Positions 17,399-35,162 of a DNA stretch of 64,000 nucleotides are shown here, piece by piece. The stretch lies in the NCBI GenBank assembly GCA_016194635.1, contig JACQBC010000037.1, forward strand, positions 62,001 through 126,000. Direction: 5' to 3'. The position numbers and the translations under genes were made by a program. The notes beneath the pieces are model-generated. The model was not told the DNA's origin, made no database searches, and saw nothing but the letters and a program-made list of their open reading frames with translations. Positions within the stretch are counted from its first letter, which is position 1. Each line of letters begins with the position of its first letter. Source of the stretch: Gammaproteobacteria bacterium (GTDB taxonomy: Bacteria; Pseudomonadota; Gammaproteobacteria; UBA6429; Thiohalophilaceae).

Positions 17399-17517
17399 GA
17401 TTTGCCGATGGTGGAGTGAGTCGCGAGGCTTAAGGTAAGCGCAAAATAAACGACACTCTATTCAACCGTTGAGAGATGGACTAGGGTAGATCTCTTTTAT
17501 CAATGAGGAGAGTACCC

Positions 17518-17655
17518 ATGGTGTATGGTACCCCTGAAGAATGGCGGGCCTTGATTGACGAACAAGCCAAGGGTGGCAAAAGCGCGGCGGTGTTTTGCTG
17601 TAAGCGATCAATGAAGGACATTCTTCCCCTGTGGTCAATGGGGCTAGAGCAATAG
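17518..17655 (+). CDS. Short remnant resembling IS66-family TnpA (accessory orfA)
   Basis: A 45-codon frame with GAGGAG seven bases before ATG 17518. The first half reads GTPEEWRALIDEQAKGG then SAAVFC, very close to the start of the helix-turn-helix accessory protein TnpA of IS66 elements (pattern W..li..q..sg.s.a.FC). The second half diverges and stops, and neither TnpB nor the transposase follows. It is therefore probably a scrap left by an element that visited the toxin-tail locus. Inverted repeats were not identified. Confidence 0.45.
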   Translation: MVYGTPEEWRALIDEQAKGGKSAAVFCCKRSMKDILPLWSMGLEQ

Positions 17656-17688
17656 GCAGCGAAGGTGGCACCACGACAGCGCAGGCAT

Positions 17689-17705
17689 TGAGCCATTGTG
17701 GTGCA
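17689..17705 (+). promoter_or_regulatory. NtrC-like enhancer site upstream of the urease operon
   Basis: The 17-base site TGAGCC-N5-GGTGCA matches the NtrC consensus TGCACC-N5-GGTGCA at 10 of 12 defined positions; the right half is perfect. It lies about 350 bases before the inferred start of transcription at the sigma-54 promoter near 18028. Confidence 0.4.
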
Positions 17706-17793
17706 ATTAAATTCTGATTTGGACCTTATTTCAGCGCAGAATTGTGTATTTATACACCATATTTTCGCAATTCCCGGGTAGATATAACCGAAT

Positions 17794-17810
17794 TGCACCA
17801 ATATACCGCA
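17794..17810 (+). promoter_or_regulatory. Second NtrC-like half-site upstream of the urease operon
   Basis: TGCACC-N5-ACCGCA: the left half is a perfect NtrC half-site, the right half keeps only the terminal GCA. It is 105 bases after the first site. Between them at 17744-17757 lies an unrelated short inverted repeat, GTGTAT-TT-ATACAC. Confidence 0.3.
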
Positions 17811-18027
17811 ATACAGTAAATATAAGCGTGGTATGCGCACTATACTGGATCAACCTTGACCGTTAGCTGTGATCTGGTTGGATTCGGCGCGCGCGTGGGA
17901 ATGTCGCTAGGTTTAAAACCGTTACCGTAAACCTCTTGCTAACTCGCGGAAAAATAACAACTGTCCGTGAGCTCCCTACGTTGTCTGCGCGGTTCGATGG
18001 GCACGAATAAAACAGGGTTGGACGGCA

Positions 18028-18043
18028 TGGCACAAATGCTGCT
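18028..18043 (+). promoter_or_regulatory. Sigma-54 (RpoN) promoter for the urease operon
   Basis: TGGCACAAATGCTGCT fits the -24/-12 consensus TGGCACG-N4-TTGCW with the exact GG-to-GC spacing; only the base after TGGCAC and one T of the -12 box differ. Transcription would start near 18055, about 120 bases before the nickel permease gene. NtrC-like sites lie upstream. Confidence 0.65.
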
Positions 18044-18177
18044 ATCTCCGCACTGAGCAAGAAAATTTAGCCACCTCGATAACAGACAAACACAAACCGA
18101 GGTTGCCAATAAAAATAATCGGCGGCTGATCGCGCCACGCGATGCGTTGATCGAAACCACAAGGGCAAGGGTGTGTC

Positions 18178-18858
18178 ATGCAAGGGTCCAATCTATGGGA
18201 AATTCTGTTGATCGGCGTCGGACTGGGCATGCTGCACGCGCTCGATAGTGATCATCTGTTGACCCTCGCCAATTTCACTCCGAACCGTACCTCGATTTCA
18301 AACAGCCTAAATTTTTGCAGCCGCTGGGCCATGGGTCATGGCGTGGCAATCCTTATTGTTGGCGTTGCAGTTGTCGTGTTTCAGCAAGCGATTCCTTTCA
18401 GGTTAGCCTCGATGGCGGAACGGGTTGTCGGCCTCGTATTAGTTTTGCTTGGGCTTGGCACCTTGCTGCGTTCAGCCCGTGCATTCACCGCGGCAAGGGG
18501 TTTTCTTCCTCGGGATGAGGGCGGAGCAAATTTTTCATCGTTGTTGAACCGAGGATCAGGATCGCCCTGGCACCAACACCGCGTCGTAGGGATTGGTTTC
18601 TTGCACGGTATTTCCGGATCGGCGGCATTGCTGGCATTGTTACCGATGACACAGTTGGCGACAGCGTTGCAGGCCATGGCGTATTTATTGTGTTTTTCCC
18701 TCGGGGTGTTGTTCGCGATGCTGGTGTTCGGCGGTGTATTAGGCGGACTATTTCAACGTCTGGGCCAACGTTATCTGCGCGCCCTGTCGGTGTTACGTCT
18801 GATCATAGCCGTGCCGGCCATCATCATCGGTGCCCTGATGGTGGTGAACCAGTCATGA
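18178..18858 (+). CDS. NicO/UreH-type nickel permease
   Basis: A 226-residue membrane protein with about six transmembrane helices. The N-terminal LGMLHALDSDHLL corresponds to the HAxDADH nickel-binding helix of NiCoT/NicO transporters, followed by RWAMGHGVAIL and GFLHGISGSAALLAL, which are conserved in the urease-linked subgroup often called UreH in Bacillus. It would bring nickel into the cytoplasm for urease assembly. It is the first gene of the urease operon, behind a sigma-54 promoter, and its last codons overlap the start of ureD by four bases (ATGA). Substrate could in principle be cobalt, but the gene context argues for nickel. Confidence 0.8.
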   Translation: MQGSNLWEILLIGVGLGMLHALDSDHLLTLANFTPNRTSISNSLNFCSRWAMGHGVAILIVGVAVVVFQQAIPFRLASMAERVVGLVLVLLGLGTLLRSARAFTAARGFLPRDEGGANFSSLLNRGSGSPWHQHRVVGIGFLHGISGSAALLALLPMTQLATALQAMAYLLCFSLGVLFAMLVFGGVLGGLFQRLGQRYLRALSVLRLIIAVPAIIIGALMVVNQS

Positions 18859-19691
18859 ACTTGACACTCCCAACGACGCTCGGTTGGTCGGCGCATTTGA
18901 ATTTAGAGTTTAGCCAGCGACAGACCCAAACCTATTTGAGCAAACGCGAACACCGTGGACCCTTGGTGGTGCAAAAACCTTTTTATCCCGGTGATGGGGC
19001 CTGCCATGTGTATGTCTTGCATCCGCCGGGCGGGATTGTCGGCGGTGATAATTTAACCCTGGAGGTGGATGCGCAACGCGGTACCCATGTGTTGTTGACA
19101 ACACCCTCGGCCAATAAATTTTATCGCAGTCAGGCTAAACCTGCCAGCCTGCGGCAAACCCTGCAGGTGGCCGACGGCGCGCGCTTGGAATGGTTACCGC
19201 AGGAAACCATCGTCTACGACGGCGCGTTTGTGAATATGCAGACGCGTATCAATTTGGCCCCACAGGCTCGATTCATCGGTTGGGAGATCACTTGTTTGGG
19301 TCGACCGGCCGCGCAGGAGCAGTTTACACGCGGTGAATGTCGGCAGGGTTTGGAACTCTGGCGCGATCAAACTCCGCTGCTGATGGAACGCGCGCGGCTC
19401 AGCGGGGGTTCACCGTTATTGCAGGCGGCCTGGGGCATGGGCGGTGCCACGGTCAGTGCCACGCTGCTGGCAACACCGGTGCAGGCGTCGCAACTTGAGG
19501 AGCTGCGTCGTTCACTGTGTGCGTGCCTGACGGGATTATTTAGTATGACCTTGATCGACGGGGTGTTGATTGCCCGGTTTTTAGGTCAACAGGCGCGTGC
19601 CGCCTTGGAGTATTTTCAAACCGTATGGGCCTTATTGCGTCCGATGATGATGGGCGTGCAGGCCTGTACACCACGCATCTGGGCCACCTGA
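18855..19691 (+). CDS. ureD: Urease accessory protein UreD
   Basis: A 278-residue protein that starts at ATG 18855 inside the stop codon of the permease gene. Typical UreD features are HRGPLVVQKPFYPG, HPPGGIVGGDNL, TTPSANKFYRS and LEWLPQETIVYDGA in the expected order. UreD is the scaffold that binds apo-urease and receives UreF and UreG for nickel and carbon dioxide delivery. The C-terminal RPMMMGVQACTPRIWAT ends as in other UreD proteins. Length is close to the family norm (about 270-280). Confidence 0.93.
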   Translation: MNLTLPTTLGWSAHLNLEFSQRQTQTYLSKREHRGPLVVQKPFYPGDGACHVYVLHPPGGIVGGDNLTLEVDAQRGTHVLLTTPSANKFYRSQAKPASLRQTLQVADGARLEWLPQETIVYDGAFVNMQTRINLAPQARFIGWEITCLGRPAAQEQFTRGECRQGLELWRDQTPLLMERARLSGGSPLLQAAWGMGGATVSATLLATPVQASQLEELRRSLCACLTGLFSMTLIDGVLIARFLGQQARAALEYFQTVWALLRPMMMGVQACTPRIWAT

Positions 19692-19703
19692 GGAAATACA
19701 ACC

Positions 19704-20006
19704 ATGGAATTAACTCCGCGTGAAAAAGATAAATTATTACTGTTCACCGCGGCCCTCGTGGCGGAGCGGCGCAAGGCGCGGGGGGTGAAATTGAATTACC
19801 CCGAGGCGGTGGCGCTGATCTCCGCCGCCATCATGGAAGGCGCGCGCGACGGCAAGACCGTGGCGGAGTTGATGAGCTACGGTACGACCTTGCTGTCGCG
19901 CGCGCAGGTGATGGACGGCATCGCGGAGCTGATCCCGGAGGTGCAGGTGGAAGCGACCTTTCCGGATGGGACCAAATTGGTTACGGTGCATAACCCGATT
20001 GTGTAA
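19704..20006 (+). CDS. ureA: Urease subunit gamma
   Basis: A 100-residue protein, exactly the usual length, starting [14 protein letters not shown] and containing the family signature [27 protein letters not shown] and [23 protein letters not shown]. UreA is the small subunit of the (ABC)3 cytoplasmic urease, which hydrolyses urea to ammonia and carbamate. GAGGAA precedes ATG 19704. It is the first structural gene in the order A-B-C. Confidence 0.97.
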
Positions 20007-20126
20007 TTAATCTTAAAGAGGCCCGACCTACAACGGCACCGTTCTATTCTGGTAGTTTGGTTGGTGGACACTATTTCGGAGCGGTTATTTTAAACAAGAA
20101 CTCAGAGACAATTGATGGAGTGGTGC

Positions 20127-20432
20127 ATGATCCCAGGTGAATATTTTATCGAGGCGGGCGAAATCACGCTTAACGCGGGTCGCAAGACGGTGCGGGTGAC
20201 GGTGGCCAATAGCGGTGATCGGCCGATTCAAGTCGGTTCGCATTATCATTTTTTTGAAACCAATAACGCCTTGCATTTCGACCGCGCTAAGTCGCGGGGC
20301 TGTCGTTTAAATATTGCCGCGGGCACGGCGGTGCGGTTTGAGCCGGGTCAATCGCGCGAGGTGGAATTGGTGGAGTTTGCTGGGGCGCGCACGGTGTATG
20401 GTTTTCAAGGCAAAGTGATGGGCACGTTATAA
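20127..20432 (+). CDS. ureB: Urease subunit beta
   Basis: The start was set at ATG 20127 because family members begin MIPGEY and GGAG lies six bases upstream; an earlier TTG/ATG (20112/20115) would add only five or four residues. The 101-residue protein has [31 protein letters not shown] and [24 protein letters not shown], the complete beta-subunit signature. It contacts the catalytic alpha subunit in the urease trimer. Confidence 0.97.
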
Positions 20433-20546
20433 CGAAAAAAAGGCAGTAGCACAAACAAGCCCCCGCGATGGTTTTAAACTGGACAGCAGTAGAAAAGACT
20501 ATAGAAGGCAAAGCAACCTCATGGACAAGTGATAAGGAAAAAAATA

Positions 20547-22250
20547 ATGGCAAGTCTCAGTAAACAGGCCTATGCCGATATGTTCGGTCCCACCGCCGGC
20601 GATCGTGTGCGCTTGGCGGATACGGATCTGATCATCGAGGTCGAGCGCGATCACACGATCTACGGCGAGGAAGTAAAATTTGGCGGCGGTAAGGTGATCC
20701 GTGACGGCATGGGACAAAGCCAGGCGGTGGCGGCCAAGGTGGTTGACACGGTGATCACCAATGCCTTGATCGTGGATCACTGGGGGATTGTCAAGGCCGA
20801 TATCGGCCTCAAACACGGCCGGATCGCGGCGATCGGCAAGGCCGGTAATCCCGACATCCAACCCGGTGTGAGCATTGTGATCGGACCGGGCACCGAAGCG
20901 ATTGCCGGCGAGGGTTTGATTGTCACGGCGGGCGGGATCGATTCGCACATTCATTTTATCTGTCCGCAACAAATCGAAGAGGCTTTGATGTCGGGGGTCA
21001 CCACCCTGATCGGTGGCGGCACCGGCCCGGCCACCGGGACCAATGCCACAACCTGTACTCCTGGCCCGTGGAATCTACATCGTATGTTGCAAGCGGCCGA
21101 AGGCCTGCCGGTGAATCTGGGCTTTCTAGGCAAGGGTAATGCGAGTTTACCGCAAGCGCTGAAGGAACAGATTGAAGCCGGTGCGATCGGTTTAAAACTC
21201 CATGAAGACTGGGGTACCACGCCGGCGGCGATCGACAACTGTTTAGCAGTCGCCGATGCCTACGATGTGCAAGTGGCGATCCATACCGACACCTTGAATG
21301 AATCGGGATTCGTCGAAGATACCATCGCGGCCTTCAAAGGACGGACGATTCACACCTACCACACCGAAGGCGCGGGCGGCGGCCACGCCCCCGACATCAT
21401 AAAAGTATGTGGTGAGGCCAATGTCTTGCCGTCGAGCACCAACCCGACGCGGCCCTATACCATTAATACCATTGACGAACACCTGGATATGCTGATGGTG
21501 TGCCATCACCTCGACCCCTCGATTCCCGAGGACGTGGCCTTTGCCGAATCGCGTATTCGCCGCGAGACCATCGCCGCCGAGGATATCTTGCACGACCTGG
21601 GGGCGTTTTCAATGTTGTCCTCGGATTCGCAGGCCATGGGCCGCGTCGGTGAAGTGATTACCCGTACCTGGCAGACAGCGCATAAAATGAAGCAACAGCG
21701 CGGCGCCTTGGTGCAAGACAGCGGGCGTGCGGATAATTACCGGGTTAAACGTTATATCGCCAAGTACACCATTAATCCCGCGTTGACCCACGGCATCGCC
21801 CACGAGGTCGGATCGATCGAGGTTGGTAAACTCGCCGACTTGGTGTTATGGAAACCGGCGTTTTTCGGGGCTAAACCGGCCTTAATCATCAAGGGCGGTT
21901 TTATTATCGCCGCGCCGATGGGCGACCCCAATGCCTCGATTCCCACGCCCCAACCGGTGCACTATCGACCGATGTTTGGCGCGTTTGGTCTGGCCTTACC
22001 CGCCAGTTGTTTAAGCTTTGTATCACAAGCGGCCTTGAGTGCCGGGATTAAACCGCAATTGGGATTGCAACGTGACGTCGTCGCCGTGCGCAATACCCGC
22101 ACCGTTCAAAAAAAGGATTTGATCTTGAACAACGCCCAACCCCATATGGAAGTCGATGCCCAGACCTATGAGGTGCGTGCCGACGGCGAGTTGTTGCGCT
22201 GCGAAGCGGCGAGCGTCTTGCCGTTAGCGCAGCGGTATTTTTTGTTTTGA
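20547..22250 (+). CDS. ureC: Urease subunit alpha (catalytic)
   Basis: A 567-residue catalytic subunit. With the start at ATG 20547 (AAGGA eight bases ahead) the nickel-bridging carbamylated lysine in GLKLHEDWG falls at residue 217, the standard number, which supports this start over GTG 20529. The nickel ligands are visible in [37 protein letters not shown] and [12 protein letters not shown], and the flap is [22 protein letters not shown]. Nothing is missing, so the enzyme should be active once nickel is inserted. It lies between ureB and ureE. Confidence 0.98.
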
Positions 22251-22253
22251 GGT

Positions 22254-22760
22254 ATGTCAATGTTACGTATTGAAGAAAAACTCACGCAGGTGACGCAGAG
22301 TCAGTCGAGTTTGACCCTGCCGTTTGATCTTCGGCAGAAGAGCCGTTTGCGTGCCAGGCTGGATGACGGGCGCGAAGTGGCCCTGATCTTGCCGCGCGGC
22401 TACATCTTGCGCAGTGGGGAGTGTTTGCGTGCCGAGGATGGAACGGTGGTGGCGATCAAGGCGGCGCTGGAAACCGTATCGTTGGTGCGTAGCGAGGATC
22501 CCGTGTTGTTGGCACGGGCCTGTTATCATTTAGGTAACCGTCATGTGCCATTACAAATTGGCCCTGGCTGGTGCCGTTATCTGCACGACCACGTGCTGGA
22601 TGCGATGGTGCAAGGATTAGGTTTGAATGTGGGCTGTGAGCTGGCCGCGTTTGAACCGGAGAATGGTGCCTATGGACAGGGAACGACGCGTAGCCATCAC
22701 CATTCTCCACATGCCGATCAAGATGCTCATCGTGATCAACATGGGCACAGCCATGATTGA
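22254..22760 (+). CDS. ureE: Urease accessory protein UreE (nickel chaperone)
   Basis: A 168-residue protein with the UreE core: an N-terminal beta domain ([24 protein letters not shown]), then [19 protein letters not shown] and [17 protein letters not shown], where the HDHVLD segment carries the conserved metal-binding histidine at the dimer interface. The tail is rich in histidine ([13 protein letters not shown] and HGHSHD), a nickel store like that of Klebsiella UreE. It hands nickel to UreG. The start is at ATG 22254, three bases after ureC, and its end overlaps the ureF start by eight bases. Confidence 0.95.
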
Positions 22761-23424
22761 TCCCGGTCAGTTGCAGCTGTGGCGTTTAATCAGCCCCATG
22801 TTGCCGATCGGTGCCTATGCCTATTCCACCGGTTTGGAAGCGGCGGTCGAGGCGGTTTGGGTACACGATGAAAGCAGCGCGCGGGAATGGATCCACGGGC
22901 TGTTAACCCATAATTTGCAACAGGTTGATCTGCCCTTATTTGCGCGCGCCTATGCCGCTTGGCAGCGGGATGATCGCGAAGCCGTATTAGGCTATCAGCG
23001 ACAATTACTGGCGATGCGCGAATCGCGTGAATTACGCCAAGAAGATCTGCAGCTGGGTGATGCGCTGAAGGTGATCCTCAAGGAAATTTTACCGCCGGAG
23101 ATCTCCCCGCAGGCCCCAACCCATGAGGTGAGTTTCGCCGTGATCTATGCCTTTGCTTGTACCCGACTCGATATCGAATTGACCGGCGCCGCCTCCGGTC
23201 TGGCGTTCGCCTGGTGTGAGAACCAGGTGGCGGCGGCCATGAAACTGATCCCCTTGGGGCAACGCGCCGGACAACGCATCATGACCCGTTTGATTGCTTC
23301 GATTCCCGCCGTGGTGCAACACGCACTGGCGATGGAAGACGAGTCCATTGGTTGTTTGTTACCACGGCTGGCGATAGCCAGTGCTCAGCACGAGGCGCAG
23401 TACAGCCGATTATTTCGTAGTTAA
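22753..23424 (+). CDS. ureF: Urease accessory protein UreF
   Basis: A 223-residue helical protein beginning [22 protein letters not shown] followed by [11 protein letters not shown], the UreF signature. The C-terminus contains [26 protein letters not shown], also typical. UreF sits between UreD-urease and UreG and controls GTP-dependent nickel delivery. The open frame runs further upstream into ureE sequence, but the ATG at 22753 fits the family start and gives an eight-base overlap with ureE. Confidence 0.94.
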
Positions 23425-23449
23425 CACGGTGAACTAGAAGGTGAAACAG

Positions 23450-24064
23450 ATGAGTACGACAAGTCAGGTATTACGCATCGGCATCGGTGGCCCGGTGGGG
23501 TCGGGTAAAACGGCGCTGGTGGATTCCTTGTGTAAATCCATGCGCGATCGTTATCAAATCGCGGTCGTGACCAACGATATCTACACCAAAGAAGACGCGC
23601 AGTTTTTAATGCGCAGCAAGGCGCTGACCGAGGATCGCATCATTGGTGTTGAGACCGGGGGTTGCCCGCACACGGCGATCCGCGAGGATGCGTCAATGAA
23701 CCTGGCCGCCGTGGCGGAATTGCAGAGCAAGTTTACCGATCTGGACTTTGTGATCGTCGAAAGTGGAGGGGATAACCTCAGTGCCACCTTCAGCCCCGAG
23801 TTATCGGATTTAACGATCTATGTGATCGATGTGGCGGCGGGCGACAAGATCCCCCGCAAGGGCGGGCCGGGTATCACCAAATCTGATCTGCTGGTAATCA
23901 ACAAGATTGATCTGGCACCGTACGTTGGCGCGTCCCTCGAGGTGATGGATCGTGATGCGAAGAAAATGCGCGGCGATCGGCCGTTTGTGTTTTCCAATCT
24001 CAAAACCGGGCATGGGTTGGCAATTATTGAGCAATTCATCGTCGATAAAGGTATGTTGAATTGA
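23450..24064 (+). CDS. ureG: Urease accessory GTPase UreG
   Basis: A 204-residue SIMIBI-class GTPase. P-loop [18 protein letters not shown], nickel-binding Cys-Pro-His in [32 protein letters not shown] and the guanine specificity motif [11 protein letters not shown] are all present. The start was placed at ATG 23450, eight bases after AGAAGG, rather than GTG 23441. UreG dimers carry nickel and, on GTP hydrolysis, load it into urease through UreF/UreD. Last gene of the urease operon. Confidence 0.97.
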
Positions 24065-24175
24065 GTTATCACAATACTGAAACCTTACTGAAACCTTCGC
24101 GGTCGATTTTGTTGTGTATCCCCAACGCTGTTTGTTGTTCCGCCACAGGTGTACAATAAAAGCGCACCGACTTAA

Positions 24176-24192
24176 GGCACCGATCGAGTGCG
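24176..24192 (+). promoter_or_regulatory. NtrC-like enhancer site upstream of the porin gene
   Basis: GGCACC-N5-AGTGCG keeps the GCAC-N7-GTGC core of the NtrC site with exact spacing (9 of 12 defined bases). Its centre is about 118 bases before the inferred sigma-54 start of transcription, a normal enhancer distance. Confidence 0.4.
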
Positions 24193-24274
24193 CACGCACC
24201 ATGATCGCACAGCTGCAAATCGGGGGTTTCTTCAAAATTTTTATAACTTATTGTAATCAATCAATAAAACCCTT

Positions 24275-24290
24275 TGGCATAGCGCTTGCC
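24275..24290 (+). promoter_or_regulatory. Sigma-54 (RpoN) promoter for the porin gene
   Basis: TGGCATAGCGCTTGCC matches the -24/-12 consensus with correct spacing (TGGCA and TTGC boxes). Transcription would start near 24302, leaving a leader of about 65 bases before the ATG at 24368. Confidence 0.65.
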
Positions 24291-24367
24291 TTCCCAGAGC
24301 TAAGCAGGGTAATACAACCCTGAATTATGATTTTTATGACACCAACAACTTTTTCGGAGGAAATTCC

Positions 24368-25480
24368 ATGCGCAATACAAAAACCCTGCTTTCCGTCGCT
24401 GTGGCCACTGCCCTAGGTGCGGCGGCTGTACCAGCTAGTGCGGCAGCTCCAATAGTGTATGGTGATCTCGCGGTTGCCCTTGTTTCTAACGGGGCCTATG
24501 CCAGCACTGGCACTGGTTCAAAAGGTAGTTTAACGATGTACGATAATGTGTCCTTATTAGGTGTAAAAGGCGATGTGGGTACGATAGATGGAATCAAGTA
24601 TTTCTATGATTTTAATTGGCTCCTCAATATAACTACTAACCATGCGACGGGTTCTGCAGGGACCCACTTGAGCATGGTGGGTATGGAAGGAGGTTTTGGT
24701 ACCGTCAGTTTGGGTAAACGCGATGTTGGCCTGTTTTCGCAGATGGTCGATGGTGGAACTTATCTTACTAACTACTATTATACGCCCGGGATGTCTTCGT
24801 TCCAGGTGAGCGATGCTGTCAAATATGTGAGCAAATCTATGGGGGGTTTTCAAATCGGGGCGCAAGCTTTTGATATAGGAAAAGATAATACCTCTGGGAA
24901 ATCCACCAACAATTATACCGTGGCAGCCACGTATCTGACGGGTGATTTGACTTTGGGTGCAGGATATACCGATTACTCTAAGTATGCGGATGGGTCAAGC
25001 ACAAAGTACGGTTTTTCAACTGATTTAAATCAATTCATTGATTCACAAAATACCTGGTCGGGTATTGTTCTGAAGAGCACAGCAGGTATCAGTGCTGCGT
25101 ATAAGATGGGTAAATTTGGTGTGGTTGGGGCCTATGACATGCGCAAACCGGCTGATAAATCCGGTCAAGTTACAAATACGATCAATACCTTGATGTTAAC
25201 TGGTTCGTATGCCATGACAGATAAAATCACTTTCGTCGCGGATTATTCTGACACCAGTCAAAGTGATGGTGCGGTACCTGACACAGGCAAAAAAGGTAAC
25301 ATCATTACCGCTATGGTTTCCTACGCGCCGTCGTCTGCCATACTCTATTCGCTTGAACTGCAAAATTCAGATAAAAATGCAAATAAAAAAGGCATTACCG
25401 GTTCATCAGCTTACGGCCTTGGTGGCACACCATCTAAAGCTAGCACTGGTATCGCGCTGGGTGTAACTTATAACTTTTAA
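24368..25480 (+). CDS. Outer-membrane porin (general Gram-negative porin family)
   Basis: A 370-residue protein with a signal peptide ending at about residue 26 (AAAVPASA) and a beta-barrel pattern of alternating hydrophobic and polar residues. The porin_4 type signatures are NVSLLGVKGDVGTIDGIKYFYDF and GGFGTVSLGKRDVGLF, and the C-terminus ends in phenylalanine (GVTYNF), the BAM recognition signal. A GGAGG precedes the start. It lies between the urease and urea-transporter genes and has its own sigma-54 promoter, so it likely lets urea or related solutes cross the outer membrane under nitrogen limitation. Its base composition is more AT-rich than the neighbouring ure and urt genes, as is common for surface proteins. 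Confidence 0.88.
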   Translation: MRNTKTLLSVAVATALGAAAVPASAAAPIVYGDLAVALVSNGAYASTGTGSKGSLTMYDNVSLLGVKGDVGTIDGIKYFYDFNWLLNITTNHATGSAGTHLSMVGMEGGFGTVSLGKRDVGLFSQMVDGGTYLTNYYYTPGMSSFQVSDAVKYVSKSMGGFQIGAQAFDIGKDNTSGKSTNNYTVAATYLTGDLTLGAGYTDYSKYADGSSTKYGFSTDLNQFIDSQNTWSGIVLKSTAGISAAYKMGKFGVVGAYDMRKPADKSGQVTNTINTLMLTGSYAMTDKITFVADYSDTSQSDGAVPDTGKKGNIITAMVSYAPSSAILYSLELQNSDKNANKKGITGSSAYGLGGTPSKASTGIALGVTYNF

Positions 25481-25500
25481 TCGTTAACGATAGAAACTAT

Positions 25501-25525
25501 AAAGACGCCTCTTTGAGGCGTCTTT
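25501..25525 (+). terminator. Terminator after the porin gene
   Basis: AAAGACGCCTC pairs perfectly with GAGGCGTCTTT around a three-base loop, with T-rich flanks, 20 bases after the porin stop. It separates porin from urtA, where read-through may still occur. Confidence 0.8.
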
Positions 25526-25562
25526 ACATTAAGATGCTAACCAACCCTACGAGGAGTCAATA

Positions 25563-26858
25563 ATGGATAATTCTGTGTTGCATAAATTAAAACTGTGGGG
25601 TACGGCGCTCGTGTTGGGCGCCACCCTCCAAGTAGTACACGCCGAAGACACCATCAAAGTCGGCATCCTGCATTCGCTCTCGGGCACGATGGCGATCAGC
25701 GAGACTACATTGAAAGATACCATGCTGATGTTGATTGACGAGCAAAATAAAAAGGGTGGTTTGCTCGGCAAGAAACTCGAGGCGGTGGTGGTCGATCCGG
25801 CCTCTAATTGGCCGTTGTTCGCGGAGAAGGCCCGTGAGTTGATCCAGAAAGATAAAGTAGCGGCGATTTTTGGCTGCTGGACCTCGGTGTCGCGCAAATC
25901 GGTGTTGCCGGTGATTGAAGAGCTCAATGGCTTGTTGTTCTACCCGGTGCAGTACGAAGGTGAAGAGTCGTCCAAGAACGTGTTTTATACCGGTGCTGCG
26001 CCAAACCAACAAGCGATCCCGGCGGTGGATTATTTGATGAAGGATCTAAAAGTAAAACGTTGGGTGTTGGCCGGGACCGACTACGTTTACCCACGGACCA
26101 CCAATAAGATTCTGGAAGCCTACTTGAAGGCCAAGGGTGTTAAGCCAGACGATATCATGATCAACTATACGCCGTTTGGTCATTCCGATTGGCAAAGTAT
26201 TGTGGCGGATATCAAAAAATTCGGCTCGGCCGGCAAGAAGACCGCGGTGGTGTCCACGATTAACGGCGACGCCAACGTACCGTTCTACAAAGAACTGGGC
26301 AATCAAGGGATCGCGGCCAGCGATATCCCGGTTATGGCGTTCTCGGTGGGTGAGGAAGAACTCTCCGGCATTGATACCAAACCCTTGGTGGGTCATCTGG
26401 CGGCGTGGAATTATTTCATGAGCGTGAAGTCACCGGCCAACACAGCTTTCATTAAGCAATGGCACGATTACATCAAAAATCCCAAGCGTGTCACCAATGA
26501 TCCGATGGAAGCGCATTACATCGGTTTCAATCTATGGGTGAAGGCGGTGGAGAAGGCCAAGAGCACCGACACCGACGCGGTCGCCAAGGCCATCCTGGGA
26601 TTGGAGGTACCGAATTTAACCGGCGGTACGGCCAAGATGTTGAATAACCATCACATCACCAAACCGGTGTTGATCGGCGAAATTCAAGCCAACGGCCAGT
26701 TCGACGTGGTGTTCAAGACCAAGAAAGAAGTGGAAGGCGATGCCTGGTCGGATTTCCTCCCCGGCAGCAAAGACATCATTGCCGATTGGAGCGCGCCGAT
26801 CAACTGCGGCAATTACAATACCAAGACCAAGAAGTGTTCGGGACAAGTTTATAAATAA
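25563..26858 (+). CDS. urtA: Urea ABC transporter, periplasmic substrate-binding protein
   Basis: A 431-residue protein with signal peptide (residues 1-27, ending VVHA). The mature start EDTIKVGILHSLSGTMAISE and the segments AVVVDPASNWPLFAEKA, IFGCWTSVSRKSVLPV, GLLFYPVQYEGEESS and NDPMEAHYIGFNLWV define UrtA within the branched-chain amino-acid/amide binding family. It captures urea in the periplasm for UrtBCDE. GAGGAG lies before ATG 25563. A strong terminator-like hairpin follows at 26886, so urtA is likely transcribed more than the membrane genes, a common pattern for binding proteins. Confidence 0.95.
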   Translation: MDNSVLHKLKLWGTALVLGATLQVVHAEDTIKVGILHSLSGTMAISETTLKDTMLMLIDEQNKKGGLLGKKLEAVVVDPASNWPLFAEKARELIQKDKVAAIFGCWTSVSRKSVLPVIEELNGLLFYPVQYEGEESSKNVFYTGAAPNQQAIPAVDYLMKDLKVKRWVLAGTDYVYPRTTNKILEAYLKAKGVKPDDIMINYTPFGHSDWQSIVADIKKFGSAGKKTAVVSTINGDANVPFYKELGNQGIAASDIPVMAFSVGEEELSGIDTKPLVGHLAAWNYFMSVKSPANTAFIKQWHDYIKNPKRVTNDPMEAHYIGFNLWVKAVEKAKSTDTDAVAKAILGLEVPNLTGGTAKMLNNHHITKPVLIGEIQANGQFDVVFKTKKEVEGDAWSDFLPGSKDIIADWSAPINCGNYNTKTKKCSGQVYK

Positions 26859-26885: not shown

Positions 26886-26917
26886 ATTGGCGATGCGTGA
26901 GCATCGCCAATGTTTTT
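26886..26917 (+). terminator. Hairpin between urtA and urtB
   Basis: ATTGGCGATGC (26886-26896) pairs perfectly with GCATCGCCAAT (26901-26911) across a GTGA loop, followed by GTTTTT. It should stop part of the transcripts after urtA; read-through would feed urtBCDE unless they have their own promoter. Confidence 0.8.
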
Positions 26918-26959: not shown

Positions 26960-28627
26960 GTGGCTAAAGTGATGACGATGACGCGGTATCAGCGAATCCA
27001 AGGATTATTCGTGTTAGTCGTGGGCTTGGGCGGGGCGTCGCTTAGCCATGCCATTGACACGGTTACGCCTAACCCAGCCGCGATATTCGCTCAGGCCCTG
27101 GCGGGATTAAAATCCGATGACTTTGATCAAAAAGAGATCGCTATCCGGCAATTGGCCGCGAGTGGCGATCCCCGCAGCGCCGAGGTTATCAAAGCCTTGC
27201 AAGACGCGCGTTTATATTATTCGACCACGACCGGGGAGATGGTTTACCTGGATGACAGCGGGACTAGCGTTAAGGCCAGCAAGGTATTAAGTGGGGAAAC
27301 CATCGCGGTGGTGGATATATCGGCCTACGACAAGGTTGGCGTCAATAACCAACTGCGTGCCGTCATCAAGGAACTCGCCGCGGTGCTGAATTTACATAGT
27401 CCGGATCGCACCCTGCGCCTGGCGGCGGTGAGCGAGCTGGTGGGCGAGGTAAGCCCGGAGAAATTAACCCTGTTCAGGGAGTTGGCGACGAAAGAAACCG
27501 ACCCCGCGATTTTAGAAATGCTGAACGTGGCCGTGGCCATCGCCGAGTTAGACAACAAGGATAATGCGTTATGGCTAAAAGCCTTGGCCACATTGGGCGA
27601 CAGTCTGCGCCCCGAGGCTTATAACAAAATAAAAAGTGTACTTAGAGAGCTATCTGGCGCCACCGATGCTGAATCGCTACGGGTGAGGGATGTCGCTCAG
27701 GCGGCGCTGCGGCGGATCGACGGCCAGCGTGAAAAATACCAATTTATCAAAACCACGTTTTTTGGTTTGAGCCTGGGGTCGATTTTATTGCTGGTGGCCA
27801 TTGGTTTGGCGATCACCTTTGGTGTGATGGGGGTGATTAACATGGCGCACGGCGAGTTGATGATGCTGGGTGCCTATACAACCTATCTGGTGCAAACGCT
27901 GTTGCCCTCCTGGCTTGAATACTCGATTCTTATCGCGATTCCGCTGGCCTTTATTGTCTCCGGGCTGGTCGGTATCGCTATCGAACGCAGCGTCATCCGT
28001 TTTCTCTACGGTCGACCGCTGGAAACATTATTGGCGACTTTTGGTATCAGCCTGGTGTTGCAGCAAATACCCCGTACGTTTATCTCCGCGCAGAATGTTA
28101 CGGTTAAAAATCCCAGTTGGTTAAGCGGTTCGTGGGAGATCAATCCTGCCTTGTCCTTTACCTATAACAGTGTATTTATTTTTATTTTTTCCATGGGTTT
28201 ATTTCTGGCCTTGTTATTGATCCTAAAGAAAACCAACCTGGGGTTGCAGGTGCGCGCGGTGGCACAAAATCGTGCCATGGCCAAGGCAATGGGTGTGCGG
28301 ACCGAATGGGTGGATGCAATGACGTTCGGATTAGGATCCGGCATCGCCGGTATCGCGGGGGTGGCCTTGAGTCAAATCACCAACGTCGGTCCAAATTTAG
28401 GGCAAGGTTATATTATCGATTCCTTTATGGTGGTGGTGTTCGGTGGGGTGGGGAATATCTGGGGTACGCTGGTGGGTTCACTAGCGATGGGCGTGGTGAA
28501 TAAATACCTGGAACCTTGGACCGGCGCGGTATTGGCGAAGATTCTAGTGCTCATCTTTATTATTTTATTCATTCAAAAACGTCCCAGGGGATTATTTCCT
28601 CAAAAAGGGCGCGCTGCCGAGATGTGA
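26960..28627 (+). CDS. urtB: Urea ABC transporter permease UrtB
   Basis: A 555-residue protein. Residues 1-30 form a signal-like segment, residues 30-250 are a periplasmic extension (LASGDPRSAEVIKALQDARLYY and Asp/Glu-rich helices) found in many proteobacterial UrtB proteins, and the rest is a LivH-type permease with about eight helices (GVMGVINMAHGELMMLGAYT, LLATFGISLVLQQ, GGVGNIWGTLVGSLAMGV). It forms the urea channel with UrtC. The start is uncertain: GTG 26960, GTG 26969 or ATG 26972, none with a strong ribosome binding site. The stop overlaps urtC by one base. Confidence 0.93.
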   Translation: MAKVMTMTRYQRIQGLFVLVVGLGGASLSHAIDTVTPNPAAIFAQALAGLKSDDFDQKEIAIRQLAASGDPRSAEVIKALQDARLYYSTTTGEMVYLDDSGTSVKASKVLSGETIAVVDISAYDKVGVNNQLRAVIKELAAVLNLHSPDRTLRLAAVSELVGEVSPEKLTLFRELATKETDPAILEMLNVAVAIAELDNKDNALWLKALATLGDSLRPEAYNKIKSVLRELSGATDAESLRVRDVAQAALRRIDGQREKYQFIKTTFFGLSLGSILLLVAIGLAITFGVMGVINMAHGELMMLGAYTTYLVQTLLPSWLEYSILIAIPLAFIVSGLVGIAIERSVIRFLYGRPLETLLATFGISLVLQQIPRTFISAQNVTVKNPSWLSGSWEINPALSFTYNSVFIFIFSMGLFLALLLILKKTNLGLQVRAVAQNRAMAKAMGVRTEWVDAMTFGLGSGIAGIAGVALSQITNVGPNLGQGYIIDSFMVVVFGGVGNIWGTLVGSLAMGVVNKYLEPWTGAVLAKILVLIFIILFIQKRPRGLFPQKGRAAEM

Positions 28628-29751
28628 TGGTGATGTCGCAAACCTCGTTAATCACAAATTTCCTGCGGCATGATCGCGGCGGGCAGATTTTATTGGCAGG
28701 ATTATTGTTGATCGGGATAGCCATACCGTTAGCAAATTTAGTCCTGCCCGAATCCTCGCCATGGCATGTCTCCACCTATACCGTCACCTTGCTGGGAAAA
28801 TACCTGTGTTATGCCATCGCGGCCATCGCCTTGGATCTGGTGTGGGGCTACTGCGGCATTCTGAGTTTAGGGCAGGGGGCGTTTTTCGCCTTGGGCGGTT
28901 ACGTCATGGGGATGTATTTAATGCGGCAGATTGGCGATCGCGGGGTCTACGGTAATCCCGTGTTACCGGATTTTATGGTATTTCTAAATTATAAGGAATT
29001 GCCCTGGTTTTGGTTTGGCTTTGATCACTTCGGGTTTATGTTATTAATGGTACTCGTGGTGCCGGGGCTGTTGGCCTTGGTGTTTGGCTGGTTTGCGTTT
29101 CGTTCACGGGTGACCGGTGTGTATTTGTCGATCATCACCCAGGCGTTGACCTTTGCCTTGATGCTGGCGTTTTTTCTCAACGCCATGGGCTTTGGGGGTA
29201 ACAACGGCCTGACCGGGTTTAAAGATATCGCTGGCTTTAATCTGCAGTCCGACGGGGTTCGTGTGTCGTTGTTTCTCGCCAGTGTTTTAATGCTGGGGTT
29301 AAGTTATGTGTTGGGACGGTATATCGTCACGGCAAAATTTGGCCGGGTGATCACCGCGATCCGCGACACTGAGGCCAGGGCGCGTTTTGTTGGTTACAAA
29401 GTTGAATATTACAAGCTGTGGTTGTTCGTGGTGGCGGCGATCATGACTGGAATTGCCGGGGCGTTGTATGTCCCCCAGGTCGGCATTATCAATCCCAGTG
29501 AATTCCAACCGTTGAATTCAATTGAGTTGGCCATTTGGGTGGCGGTAGGGGGACGTGGCACGTTATACGGCGCGGTCGCCGGCGCCTTGGTGGTGAATTA
29601 CGCCAAAACCTTTTTCACCGGATTTTTACCCGAGGCCTGGCTTTACGTCCTGGGAGGAGTATTTATTTTTGTGACGTTATTGCTGCCCAAGGGGTTGGTG
29701 GGTGTATTCCAATCACGGCGCGGGTTGAAACCACGGATCGTTTCGCCATGA
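28627..29751 (+). CDS. urtC: Urea ABC transporter permease UrtC
   Basis: A 374-residue LivM-type permease. The start at ATG 28627 shares a base with the urtB stop (TGATG). Recognisable parts are LDLVWGYCGILSLGQGAFFALGGYVMGM, NNGLTGFKDIAGF, AIRDTEARARFVGYKVEYYKLW and GRGTLYGAVAGALVVNYAKT, in the order expected for UrtC, with about nine transmembrane segments. It pairs with UrtB in the inner membrane. The gene overlaps urtD by four bases (ATGA). Confidence 0.95.
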   Translation: MVMSQTSLITNFLRHDRGGQILLAGLLLIGIAIPLANLVLPESSPWHVSTYTVTLLGKYLCYAIAAIALDLVWGYCGILSLGQGAFFALGGYVMGMYLMRQIGDRGVYGNPVLPDFMVFLNYKELPWFWFGFDHFGFMLLMVLVVPGLLALVFGWFAFRSRVTGVYLSIITQALTFALMLAFFLNAMGFGGNNGLTGFKDIAGFNLQSDGVRVSLFLASVLMLGLSYVLGRYIVTAKFGRVITAIRDTEARARFVGYKVEYYKLWLFVVAAIMTGIAGALYVPQVGIINPSEFQPLNSIELAIWVAVGGRGTLYGAVAGALVVNYAKTFFTGFLPEAWLYVLGGVFIFVTLLLPKGLVGVFQSRRGLKPRIVSP

Positions 29752-30578
29752 GCAACACCGAACTTAGCGGCTTGATGCCCGCGAGCTCCGGGCAAGATTT
29801 TGGCACCCATCCGCTAATCGAGGGTGCGATCGATACCAGTCATTCGATCATTTTATATTTGGAAAGTGTCAGTGTCAGTTTTGATGGTTTCAAAGCGCTA
29901 AACAATCTGACCCTGTATATCGAGGACGGCGAATTACGTTGCATCATCGGCCCGAACGGCGCGGGTAAAACCACCATGATGGATGTGATCACCGGTAAGA
30001 CCCGGCCGGACAGCGGTCAAGTGTTTCTCGGGCAAACCCTGGATCTGACCACCATGTCAGAACACGAAATCGCCACGGCGGGCATCGGCCGGAAATTCCA
30101 GAAGCCAACGGTGTTTCCCGAACACAGTGTGTTTGAAAATCTCGAATTGGCGATGCACGCGGATAAACGCGTCTGGGCGAGTTTAGTGGCGCGTCTGAGC
30201 GGTGCGCAACGTGATCGTATCGACGAAGTGCTGCGGACGGTAATGCTGGCCGAACACGCACACCAGCAAGCAAAATTCTTATCCCACGGTCAAAAACAGT
30301 GGCTGGAAATCGGTATGTTATTGATGCAGAATCCACGCATCTTATTGGTAGATGAACCCATTGCCGGGATGACTCATCAAGAAACCGAACGTACCGCGGA
30401 ATTATTAACTTCCTTGGCCGGTAAACACTCGGTAGTGGTGGTCGAGCATGATATGGAGTTTGTCCGTTCGATCGCCCGGCACGTCACGGTATTACACGAA
30501 GGCGGCGTGTTGGCGGAAGGTACGATGGATGAGGTGCAGAATAATCAGCGGGTGATTGAGGTGTATCTGGGAGAGTGA
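29748..30578 (+). CDS. urtD: Urea ABC transporter ATP-binding protein UrtD
   Basis: A 276-residue LivG-type ATPase starting at ATG 29748 within the urtC stop. It has an N-terminal extension of about 35 residues before the ABC domain, Walker A GPNGAGKTT, GIGRKFQKPTVF after the Q-loop, the signature LSHGQKQWLEIGMLL (typical of UrtD, with Ser-His-Gly), Walker B RILLVDEP and a final switch histidine in VVVEHDMEFV. With UrtE it powers urea import. The stop is seven bases before urtE. Confidence 0.95.
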   Translation: MSNTELSGLMPASSGQDFGTHPLIEGAIDTSHSIILYLESVSVSFDGFKALNNLTLYIEDGELRCIIGPNGAGKTTMMDVITGKTRPDSGQVFLGQTLDLTTMSEHEIATAGIGRKFQKPTVFPEHSVFENLELAMHADKRVWASLVARLSGAQRDRIDEVLRTVMLAEHAHQQAKFLSHGQKQWLEIGMLLMQNPRILLVDEPIAGMTHQETERTAELLTSLAGKHSVVVVEHDMEFVRSIARHVTVLHEGGVLAEGTMDEVQNNQRVIEVYLGE

Positions 30579-30585
30579 TGCTGGG

Positions 30586-31281
30586 ATGTTGCAGATTAAA
30601 CAACTCAATCAGTTTTACGGCGAGAGCCATACATTGTGGGACGTGGACGTGGATGTGTCCGAAGGCGCTTGCGTGTGTTTAATGGGCCGTAATGGGGTTG
30701 GAAAAACCACCTTGCTCAAAAGCATCATGGGGCTGTTGCCGATTCAATCTGGGCAAATGCAGTATAAAGATAAAACCTTGCAGCGACTTCCCGCACAACA
30801 GCGGGCCCGATTGGGGATAGGATACGTGCCGCAGGGCCGCGAGATATTTCCCTTGTTGACAGTGGCGGAGAATTTGCGAATCGGCTTGTCGGCGTTGGGA
30901 AAAAACAAGCGTTCGATTGCCGCGCGTATTTATGAGTTATTCCCGGTGCTCAAGGATATGTTACAGCGGCGGGGGGGTGATCTGTCCGGTGGGCAGCAAC
31001 AGCAATTGGCGATTGGCCGCGCCCTGACCTTGGATCCGAAATTATTGATCCTCGATGAACCCACCGAAGGTATTCAACCCAATATCGTACAGGAGATCGG
31101 TGCTATCATCTTGCAACTCAATCAGCAAGATAAACTGACGGTGTTATTGGTAGAGCAAAAACTTCCCTTCGCGCGCCGCGTTGCAACGCAATTCGTGATT
31201 ATGGACAAGGGCCGCAGTGTGGCGCAGGGTGCAATGCCGGCATTAAGCGACGCGCAAGTGAAGCAGTATTTAACCGTATAA
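30586..31281 (+). CDS. urtE: Urea ABC transporter ATP-binding protein UrtE
   Basis: A 231-residue LivF-type ATPase starting MLQIKQLNQFYGESHTLWDV. Walker A GRNGVGKTT, IGYVPQGREIFP, signature LSGGQQQQLAIGRAL, Walker B LLILDEPTEGIQPN and LLVEQKLPFA are all intact; the EGIQPNIVQEI stretch is a known feature of UrtE. It is the last gene of the urea transporter operon and is followed by a small hairpin at 31293. Confidence 0.95.
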   Translation: MLQIKQLNQFYGESHTLWDVDVDVSEGACVCLMGRNGVGKTTLLKSIMGLLPIQSGQMQYKDKTLQRLPAQQRARLGIGYVPQGREIFPLLTVAENLRIGLSALGKNKRSIAARIYELFPVLKDMLQRRGGDLSGGQQQQLAIGRALTLDPKLLILDEPTEGIQPNIVQEIGAIILQLNQQDKLTVLLVEQKLPFARRVATQFVIMDKGRSVAQGAMPALSDAQVKQYLTV

Positions 31282-31319: not shown

Positions 31320-32195
31320 CTAGGGTGAGGATTGGTTCTGCTCTTGCGCGCGTTCCACCTGCAACCGCTGCCTGAGCAATTTCACGTAGGGCCGGAGCGT
31401 GCGCATTTCACGGTTGGTGATCTCACCCATGTCACCGTAGCCGCTGTTTTCAAAGAAGGTCCTACCCGCGCCGGCGGCGGTAAACCGCAACATTGATCGG
31501 CGTAATTGCTGGTAATCACCGTCCTTGAGTTTGGGACTGGCCATGAACATCATATGCGGTACCTTGGGAGTGGTGGTGAGGATGCGGAGCTTATCGCGCA
31601 CCTCGACAGGCATGGTTTCAAATACCGCTGCTGATGTCACCGCGGCGTCGGCCTTACCACTCGCTACCGCCATGATGGCATTGTTATGCGATGGGGTATA
31701 TTGTACGGTGATGTTCTTCCCCGCGATCAATTGGTTATCGCGCAACAGCTGCTCGCCCAACATGGTGGTGATGGCGGTGTCCGACGGCGCGATAAAGATA
31801 CGGCCTTTGAGATCCTGTAGGGTCTTAATCGGGCCGTCCTTGCGAACTACGATGCTACCGTCGAGTTCACGGGTAAGGCGGCTGATGCGTCGGTAATGAA
31901 AATCCGTTTCTACCAAGGCGGCAATGTGCGGCGCGGTTAAATACAGGTCGTATTGGTAGTGTTCGGCGCGTTCAACATAACTGCTAAAACTCGGGGCGGT
32001 TTCCAAGATTACCGGCCGATGCAGGTTGATTTCCAAGTAGGTCTTGAGGGGCGCGAACCGCTCCAGTAATTTCTCGGTACTTAAGTAAGGTAACAGGCCA
32101 ACCCGCAAGGGTGGTGGGCCGGCGGATCTTTCAGCGGCATGGGTGAGTATTATTACGCAATACAACAAGGTGGTAACAACCCAACGATACACCAT
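31320..32195 (-). CDS. PhnD-like periplasmic binding protein, partner of the adjacent GGDEF/EAL protein
   Basis: A 291-residue protein with signal peptide (residues 1-20, ending ILTHA). It has LRVGLLPYLSTEKLLERFAP, YDLYLTAPHIAALVE, LKGRIFIAPSDTAITTML and SGKADAAVTSAAVF, the pattern of phosphate/phosphonate binding proteins of the PhnD group. TAGGAGA precedes ATG 32195. It is nine bases behind the GGDEF/EAL gene on the same strand and has no permease or ATPase nearby, so it probably works as a sensor subunit, not in transport. The C-terminal tail (LLRQRLQVERAQEQ) is a charged helix. Confidence 0.8.
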   Translation of the reverse strand: MVYRWVVTTLLYCVIILTHAAERSAGPPPLRVGLLPYLSTEKLLERFAPLKTYLEINLHRPVILETAPSFSSYVERAEHYQYDLYLTAPHIAALVETDFHYRRISRLTRELDGSIVVRKDGPIKTLQDLKGRIFIAPSDTAITTMLGEQLLRDNQLIAGKNITVQYTPSHNNAIMAVASGKADAAVTSAAVFETMPVEVRDKLRILTTTPKVPHMMFMASPKLKDGDYQQLRRSMLRFTAAGAGRTFFENSGYGDMGEITNREMRTLRPYVKLLRQRLQVERAQEQNQSSP

Positions 32196-32204
32196 GGCGG
32201 TCTC

Positions 32205-35042: not shown

Positions 35043-35162
35043 ACGGAAGGTCAAGTCCACCCTGATTCTAATTATGGCGACAGAATGTTAACAGCATAGC
35101 CTACCCACAAATGAATACAAGGCTTTGTTTTTAATTATGAAATTCAGATTATGGGTGGCGGG

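Follow-up and report, generated by a model that had tools for sequence, protein, structure and literature searches.

The window, that is, the whole stretch of 64,000 nucleotides that was analyzed, carries a urease (ure) operon, a porin gene and the genes of the Urt urea ABC transporter. The transporter is complete, with UrtA-E all scoring above their NCBIfam cut-offs. The features are:

17667..17810, + strand: three NtrC-like sites (17667, 17689, 17794), about 234-361 bp upstream of the ure -24 element
18028..18043, + strand: predicted -24/-12 promoter element (sigma-54) of the ure operon, with 1 mismatch; first start codon 135 bp downstream
18178..18858, + strand: small membrane protein, first gene of the ure operon; putative nickel permease by motif and position only
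18843..19691, + strand: ureD (PF01774; start approximate)
19704..22250, + strand: ureA, ureB and ureC, urease subunits (NCBIfam)
22254..24064, + strand: ureE, ureF and ureG (profile matches)
24150..24211, + strand: NtrC-like array, with sites at 24150, 24163 and 24176 (3, 3 and 2 mismatches) and a weaker one near 24195
24275..24290, + strand: predicted sigma-54 -24/-12 site of the porin-urt unit, 78 bp 5' of the porin start codon
24368..25480, + strand: porin, Pfam Porin_4 (PF13609), 370 aa, 67.5 bits (cut-off 27)
25498..25528, no strand assigned: hairpin with a 14-bp stem between the porin gene and urtA; 0 of 60 shuffles as strong
25563..26858, + strand: urtA, urea-binding protein (TIGR03407, 577.8 bits, cut-off 492.75)
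26886..26911, + strand: second hairpin, 11-bp stem and T-rich tail, in the urtA-urtB gap
26960..31281, + strand: urtB, urtC, urtD and urtE (TIGR03409, 03408, 03411 and 03410, all over cut-off; starts of C, D and E approximate)

The product of 18178..18858 contains a HALDSDH motif, which we take to indicate a nickel permease. Its only Pfam match was DsbD_2, below cut-off, and a homolog precedes ureD in 8 of 20 stretches from relatives. The hairpin between the porin gene and urtA has a T-rich tail on the - strand only, and is thus, on the + strand, a hairpin rather than a consensus terminator. Should it end transcription, urtA would depend on a different promoter; the 82-bp gap showed no sigma-70-like site.

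A first-pass annotation had located a porin between the ure and urt genes, which was borne out, and Pfam placed it in the Porin_4 family, whose fold is a 16-strand beta-barrel forming trimers. A signal sequence and a C-terminal phenylalanine were recognized by eye. BLAST gave no match to this porin elsewhere in the same genome at E values up to 1. A second Porin_4 gene in this genome (159.9 bits) is closer to the family profile than the window's porin, and had no sigma-54 or NtrC-like sites in the 600 bp upstream. A contig search with the window's porin detected one locus, L111, on a 22,741-base MAG contig (JAHECZ010000041.1, "Gammaproteobacteria bacterium isolate Ww184"), probably the same record as contig G001 in our set of relatives. 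A profile search of PDB sequences returned one match (E 0.41), taken as chance, and an AlphaFold2 model built from a two-row alignment had a pLDDT of 26.6, too low for use. Third-position GC of the porin gene was 0.42, compared to 0.60-0.78 in its neighbors; in G001 the values were 0.42 for the porin gene and 0.60 for urtA, and larger gaps occurred in two loci of other barrel families (L065 and L110). This low value hints at a foreign origin, with high expression or the amino acid composition of porins as other possible causes.

Predicted sigma-54 and NtrC-like sites

The window was scanned with strings that we take to be the sigma-54 (TGGCAYRNNNNTTGCW) and NtrC (TGCACYNNNNNRGTGCA) consensus sequences. 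The site at 18028 (TGGCACAAATGCTGCT) has the GG-N10-GC spacing and that at 24275 (TGGCATAGCGCTTGCC) has the GG-N10-GC core with TGGCAYR/TTGCW, each with one mismatch to the sigma-54 consensus. NtrC-like sites with no more than two mismatches were found at 17667, 17689, 17794 and 24176. The sites of the array before the porin gene are centered 117, 104, 91 and 72 bp ahead of the -24 element. Over the whole window there was no clear excess of either motif by number: 6 sigma-54 matches were found versus 2.95 expected (5 of 100 shuffles, generated here by first-order Markov resampling, reached 6), and 8 NtrC matches versus 8.4.

Two intergenic regions were tested because the first-pass annotation had singled them out as carrying -24/-12 sites with NtrC-like sites upstream. 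Region 17399-18177 had 3 NtrC-like sites (up to 2 mismatches; mean 0.11, with 0/1000 shuffles reaching 3) and one sigma-54 site (mean 0.015, reached by 14/1000). Region 24065-24367 had 3 NtrC-like sites (up to 3 mismatches; mean 0.32, 4/1000) and one sigma-54 site (mean 0.004, 4/1000). Both kinds of sites together (NtrC-like at up to 3 mismatches) were obtained in 0/1000 and 1/1000 shuffles, respectively, confirming that both arrangements are present and jointly rare in their own regions.

The genome encodes one sigma-54 DNA-binding domain (rpoN) and one NtrC over cut-off. Genome-wide, the sigma-54 motif was not in excess by number, with 85 loose matches (TGGCAYNNNNNNTGC) versus 87 for the reversed motif and 14 strict matches versus 12. 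It behaves like a signal in this genome by placement, not number: 12 of the 14 strict matches, which include 24275, lie outside ORFs of at least 80 codons (10 if 60-codon ORFs are counted), whereas 2 of the 12 strict matches to the reversed motif do so. Among the genes that follow strict matches are flgA, flgB, fliL and those for an MFS transporter and a nirB-like reductase. NtrC-like sites (up to 2 mismatches) occur with the nirB-like gene, the MFS gene and a GntR gene; the three flagellar genes had none at up to 3 mismatches.

The predicted promoter of the porin-urt unit is a stronger case than that of the ure operon. In an alignment with the other species of the genus, the -24/-12 site is conserved, as is the NtrC array in its core, with the site near 24195 at 4 mismatches in that species. 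The promoter was found in all 10 Porin_4 or TorF loci of our first set (the window and nine relatives). In the full set of 68 urt loci, which share ancestry, so that counts are not independent, a near-perfect -24/-12 site was present in 2/2 Porin_4 and 17/18 TorF loci (shuffle means 0.04 and 0.24). For 17 sigma-54 sites in the first set (10 before barrel genes, 4 before urtA and 3 before ure), the upstream regions yielded 42 NtrC-like sites with up to 3 mismatches versus 6.1 (sd 2.2) in shuffles, and 24 with up to 2 mismatches versus 0.7, values reached in 0/200 shuffles in both cases; before barrel genes these sites are often in register. No sigma-54 site was found within 400 bp before the window's urtA, nor upstream of nine TorF genes lying next to ure or urt in relatives. 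Comparison thus gives good support to the nitrogen control of the porin that had been proposed earlier, since the promoter and enhancer sites recur in relatives even beside a barrel of another family.

Sigma-54/NtrC control had also been proposed for the ure operon, where it remains plausible: the core and upstream sites are present, but a sigma-54 site within 2 kb before ure occurred in only 2 of 10 relatives examined. None was found in 1081 bases upstream of ure in the other species of the genus, a region that does not align with the window's. In the two relatives that carry a sigma-54 site, NtrC-like sites stand at corresponding distances, one of them perfect.

Barrel families preceding urtA

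A barrel gene in the same direction precedes urtA in 38 of the 68 urt loci, and three families occupy this place: Porin_4 (2/68), TorF (18/68) and ExtI-like (18/68). Porin_4 occurs there in the window's genus only. An expected co-occurrence of this porin type with urt genes was therefore not seen for Porin_4 itself, but does hold for barrels as a class. No barrel gene was found before urtA in 28 of the 68 loci, so that a barrel in this place is not required for urt function; 13 of these 28 have a sigma-54 site, placed before urtA itself. Among the 18 ExtI-like loci, seven have such a site and most do not. A strong hairpin follows the barrel gene in 2/2 Porin_4, 13/18 TorF and 2/21 ExtI-like loci.

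Porin_4 and TorF show no detectable kinship (hhalign probability 10.6%), although one TorF protein matches Porin_4 below cut-off. TorF proteins of the first set have 220-262 residues versus 370 for the window's porin. The latter also has no detectable relation to the ExtI-like profile, and three ExtI-like proteins that were scanned all fell below the ExtI equivalog cut-off. In the UrtA tree the Porin_4 pair adjoins TorF loci, suggesting that the barrel was exchanged and the switch kept.

Regulated entry of urea and known systems

We consider it the best explanation, with a probability of roughly two in three, that, when nitrogen runs short, NtrC and sigma-54 switch on a porin-urtABCDE unit through which urea enters. 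NtrC in its phosphorylated form would bind the predicted sites at 24150-24211 and activate sigma-54 RNA polymerase at 24275, giving a single transcript with the porin first that runs on into urtABCDE. The hairpins 3' of the porin gene and of urtA would probably trim or process the message, with porin exceeding binding protein and binding protein exceeding permease. The porin would raise outer-membrane permeability to urea at low external concentration; UrtA would capture the urea for import by UrtBCDE, and urease, encoded in a separate operon that is probably also driven by NtrC/sigma-54, would release ammonia. The Porin_4 gene would stand in a place held by a TorF barrel in related genera, behind a retained promoter.

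A possible alternative, to which we give less than even odds, is that the porin is nitrogen-regulated but general, NtrC raising permeability to ammonium, amides, amino acids and urea, and urt merely sharing its promoter. The Porin_4 family includes general porins, and the glnK-amtB operon of the same genome begins with a TorF barrel gene that has sigma-54 and NtrC-like sites; of 24 genomes with an amtB match, 8 have TorF no more than 2.5 kb from amtB. The extract available of a study of Burkholderia cenocepacia reports that an ntrC mutant had lower levels of four porins and a higher level of one (PMC5491218). On the other side stand the missing BLAST match to the porin elsewhere in the genome and the second Porin_4 gene without the switch, although neither says anything on specificity.

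That sigma-54/NtrC dependence is limited to the porin-urt unit, with 18028 a chance match and ure driven otherwise, appears unlikely. The scarcity of the site among relatives and its absence in the other species of the genus would fit, but the joint motif test (0/1000), the matching NtrC-like sites of the two relatives, and the NtrC- and sigma-54-dependence of B. cenocepacia urease genes (PMC5491218, in extract) argue against it. Even less probable is a separate porin transcription unit ended by the strong hairpin, with urt expressed on its own and the neighborhood incidental: the + strand hairpin lacks a T-rich tail, no other promoter was seen in the gap, sigma-54 sites of barrel-less loci lie before urtA, and this place is repeatedly taken by barrels, of three families in all.

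The crossing of the outer membrane by small nitrogen compounds is commonly assumed to be unspecific. This uncultured gammaproteobacterium appears to co-induce an outer-membrane pore and a urea importer when nitrogen is scarce, and its relatives to use the same kind of switch with different pores. At slightly less than even odds, the three barrel families, between which no kinship was detected, have displaced each other time and again, the pore being the exchangeable first and most expressed gene of NtrC/sigma-54 units (urt, glnK-amtB) in many Gammaproteobacteria, with Porin_4 and TorF behind the same promoter and outer-membrane entry a selected, regulated step of urea uptake. If the pore family changes while starvation promoter and place stay, outer-membrane passage would limit growth at natural urea levels, and the TorF family, only a "putative porin" in NCBIfam, gains a testable function.

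Among the matches listed, we found no report of a Porin_4 or TorF barrel as the first gene of a urt unit, which, given partial coverage of the literature, is weak evidence of absence. The extracts available describe urea genes under NtrC/sigma-54 control in B. cenocepacia (PMC5491218) and induction of urt by NtrC in Pseudomonas putida (PMC7801951). In P. putida KT2440, nitrogen limitation raised urtA 12.7-fold in the wild type and still 11.1-fold when rpoN was mutated (PMC7801951), so that induction is independent of RpoN there, which counts against our preferred explanation. In both organisms regulator and target genes are as in the window; the extracts place no porin first in the urt unit. 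Nearest in role is FmdC of Methylophilus methylotrophus, an amide/urea-inducible porin (as cited in the part available of PMC5877670), which is also the characterized porin most like ExtI, at 19% identity (PMC5877670). FmdC is thus nearest the type found before urtA in other genomes, whereas the window's porin belongs to Porin_4, a distinction drawn from family assignment rather than from the FmdC sequence. ExtI-like porins (NF040900, Porin_O_P) share the place before urtA, but differ in family and mostly in promoter and hairpin. The TorF putative porins (TIGR02001) resemble the window's porin in place, promoter type and hairpin, and differ in family and length. Precedents exist both for urea genes controlled by NtrC and for a porin inducible by amides or urea; what is new is the proposed exchange of barrels.

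Urea genes and their predicted promoters in the window

The genome that contains the window (G000, 3.7 Mb, 37 contigs; the window is C3:62001-126000) carries a porin gene between its ure and urt genes. Features of this region are as follows:

18028: predicted sigma-54 (-24/-12) site before the ure operon
From 18178: small membrane protein gene, then ureD, ureABC and ureEFG
24275: predicted sigma-54 site before the porin gene
24305-24322: porin leader with a short inverted repeat (CAGGGT...ACCCTG), conserved in G001, the second species of this genus
24368-25480: porin gene, after ureEFG and before urtABCDE
31320-35060, - strand: immediately beyond urtE, a GGDEF/EAL protein and a binding protein of phosphonate type (PF12974), both with homologues at the equivalent position in G001
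36027-36042, - strand: good -24/-12 match, antisense inside a long + strand ORF (35781-37715)

The porin belongs to Pfam Porin_4 (67.5 bits) and received no name from NCBIfam; its third-position GC was 0.42 vs 0.60-0.78 for its neighbours. One further Porin_4 gene over the cut-off was detected in this genome (contig 1, 159.9 bits). BLAST (E up to 1) gave no link between the two, and neither a sigma-54 nor an NtrC-like site (up to two mismatches) was found within 600 bp upstream of the contig 1 gene. The first ure-operon gene had been called a nickel permease in the first-pass annotation; its position and the motif HX4DH (here HALDSDH), which we take to indicate nickel, favor this call, whereas Pfam gave only a weak DsbD_2 match below the cut-off.

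The -24/-12 spacing claimed for 18028 and 24275 was confirmed: both have GG-N10-GC and one mismatch to TGGCAYRNNNNTTGCW. Over the whole window, the sigma-54 motif occurred 6 times vs 2.95 expected (at least 6 in 5 of 100 first-order Markov shuffles) and the NtrC-like motif 8 times vs 8.4 expected; by number, neither was clearly in excess. By place, both do stand out in their own intergenic regions, where a joint test of the two motifs was matched by 0 of 1000 shuffles for 18028 and 1 of 1000 for 24275. The porin promoter aligned with its G001 counterpart, with the core sites intact.

Across the genome, a looser sigma-54 pattern gave 85 matches vs 87 for a reversed control, and a strict pattern, which includes 24275 and leaves out 18028, gave 14 vs 12. 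It is placement, unlike frequency, that separates the strict motif from its control: 12 of the 14 matches lay outside ORFs of at least 80 codons (10 of 14 when ORFs of 60-79 codons were counted as genes), compared to 2 of 12 controls. The two exceptions were one match on contig 32 and the third match of the window (36027, minus strand), the latter probably due to chance. Genes downstream of strict matches include flgB, flgA, fliL, a nirB-like reductase, an MFS transporter, a GntR regulator and an amino-acid permease; for one of the 12 extragenic matches, at the start of contig 9, the downstream gene was absent from the fetched stretch. Among 11 strict sites scanned, three (nirB-like, MFS, GntR) had an NtrC-like site with up to two mismatches within 250 bp, three further sites had one at three mismatches, and the three flagellar sites had none. 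On contig 9 (L113), the nirB-like reductase and MFS transporter genes are separated by divergent sigma-54 sites accompanied by NtrC-like ones, and this gene pair probably serves nitrate assimilation. A single sigma-54 DNA-binding domain and a single NtrC above the curated threshold (746.6 bits; next best 398.2) were found in the genome.

Barrel families before urtA

UrtA was present in 20 of 58 relatives and in 58 of 276 class members with a completeness of 90% or more (the window's genome was counted in both surveys, and five other genomes were common to both), from which 20 + 53 stretches were fetched (L038-L110). G001 has the same gene order and porin as the window (identity 69% over the alignment and 65% by tblastn). 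Eight loci from four other genera of the family carry a TorF (Gcw_chp) gene of 220-262 aa between ureG and urtA; an ExtI-like (Porin_O_P) gene precedes urtA in two further genera of the family and elsewhere in the class, and no barrel gene was found before urtA in two genera of the family (G009, G017).

Family assignments come from Pfam and NCBIfam scans for ten barrel proteins and, for the others, from profiles made with the first set of loci (the window and its relatives). None of 45 genes was matched by more than one of the three profiles, and hhalign revealed no convincing kinship among the families (probability up to 10.6%). The barrels may still share a very ancient origin, since one TorF protein of G000 matched Porin_4 below the cut-off (E 0.0022).

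From 74 loci including the window, six with less than 300 bp upstream were dropped (L042, L054, L055, L077, L090 and L108; L054 carries a perfect sigma-54 site). A same-direction barrel gene preceded urtA in 38 of the remaining 68.

Sigma-54 sites (up to one mismatch) before the barrel gene or urtA, with the mean number of loci in shuffles
Porin_4: 2 of 2 loci; 0.04
TorF, same direction: 17 of 18; 0.24
ExtI-like: 7 of 18; 0.12
TorF, opposite strand: 2 of 2; 0.03
No barrel gene by these profiles: 13 of 28; 0.17

The search covered 450 bp before the longest ORF start and, because true starts are unsure, 60 bp inside the gene when a barrel was first; in barrel-less loci it was limited to the region before urtA. 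Two of these 28 loci (L047, L107) have little over 300 bp upstream and may conceal a barrel gene.

A quick UrtA tree (74 rows) placed the Porin_4 pair (support 93) beside the TorF loci L057 (85) and L039 with L040 (87), these supports being moderate and unstarred. This position suggests that Porin_4 took the place of TorF in the window's genus. As drawn, the tree requires 10 switches between the three barrel types. Fewer are needed when just its well-supported branches are considered: four for the TorF label and five for ExtI-like, barrel-less loci included.

Predicted control and expression of the urea genes

Upstream of 17 first-set promoters picked for having a sigma-54 site (10 barrel, 4 urtA, 3 ure), 42 NtrC-like sites were identified vs 6.1 expected, many centred ~72, 91 and 104 bp upstream of -24; L045 had only distant and weak ones. 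From its place and this control, we infer that urea would pass through the window's porin, as first proposed.

The ure promoter was compared in 10 relatives with ure ahead of urt, leaving out the truncated L057 and three class loci. In L039 and L040, a sigma-54 site lies no more than 74 bp from the first ure gene, accompanied by NtrC-like sites ~101 and 58 bp upstream of -24, of which one is perfect. The other eight showed no sigma-54 site before ure in up to 2 kb (1.1 kb in L038, 1.8 kb in L051), and none preceded the nine TorF genes flanking ure or urt in relatives. An NtrC-like site without a -24/-12 match lies 92 bp before the first ure gene in G001 and ~105 bp before it in L049 and L053. 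In this upstream stretch, the DNA of G001 and of the window do not align. The proposed sigma-54/NtrC control of ure is thus plausible at most.

A comparable arrangement exists elsewhere in G000. On contig 14 (L137:4061-6729), the first gene of a glnK-amtB operon is a TorF gene that has sigma-54 (one mismatch) and NtrC-like (two mismatches) sites; the TorF gene preceding it has no sites of its own. Among 24 genomes with a match to this amtB at E up to 1e-60, tallied from the listed positions, eight have TorF within 2.5 kb of amtB, six in the same direction.

Hairpins were detected between porin and urtA (14-bp stem) and between urtA and urtB (11-bp stem with a T-rich tail). The former fails the terminator pattern toward urt because its T-rich tail is on the minus strand only. 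Such gap hairpins were equalled by no more than 1 of 60 shuffles in 2/2 Porin_4, 13/18 TorF and 2/21 ExtI-like gaps (gaps below 30 or above 260 bases excluded; L057 entered by hand). The window's hairpins would fit expression that falls stepwise from porin through binding protein to permease, or a terminator. Similar step-downs occur in other binding-protein operons.

Comparison with known systems

Our literature search found no report of barrel families being exchanged before urtA downstream of an NtrC/sigma-54 promoter, nor of TorF or Porin_4 acting in urea uptake. According to PMC5491218, a B. cenocepacia ntrC mutant has lowered urea uptake and urease genes, with four porins down and one up, and urease is listed among targets common to NtrC and sigma-54. 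PMC7801951 cites NtrC induction of urt in P. putida, where the rise in urtA was 12.7-fold for the wild type and 11.1-fold for an rpoN mutant, which argues against a general RpoN requirement. A porin induced by amides and urea, FmdC, is cited in PMC5877670, and a comammox fmdC appears in PMC11064514.
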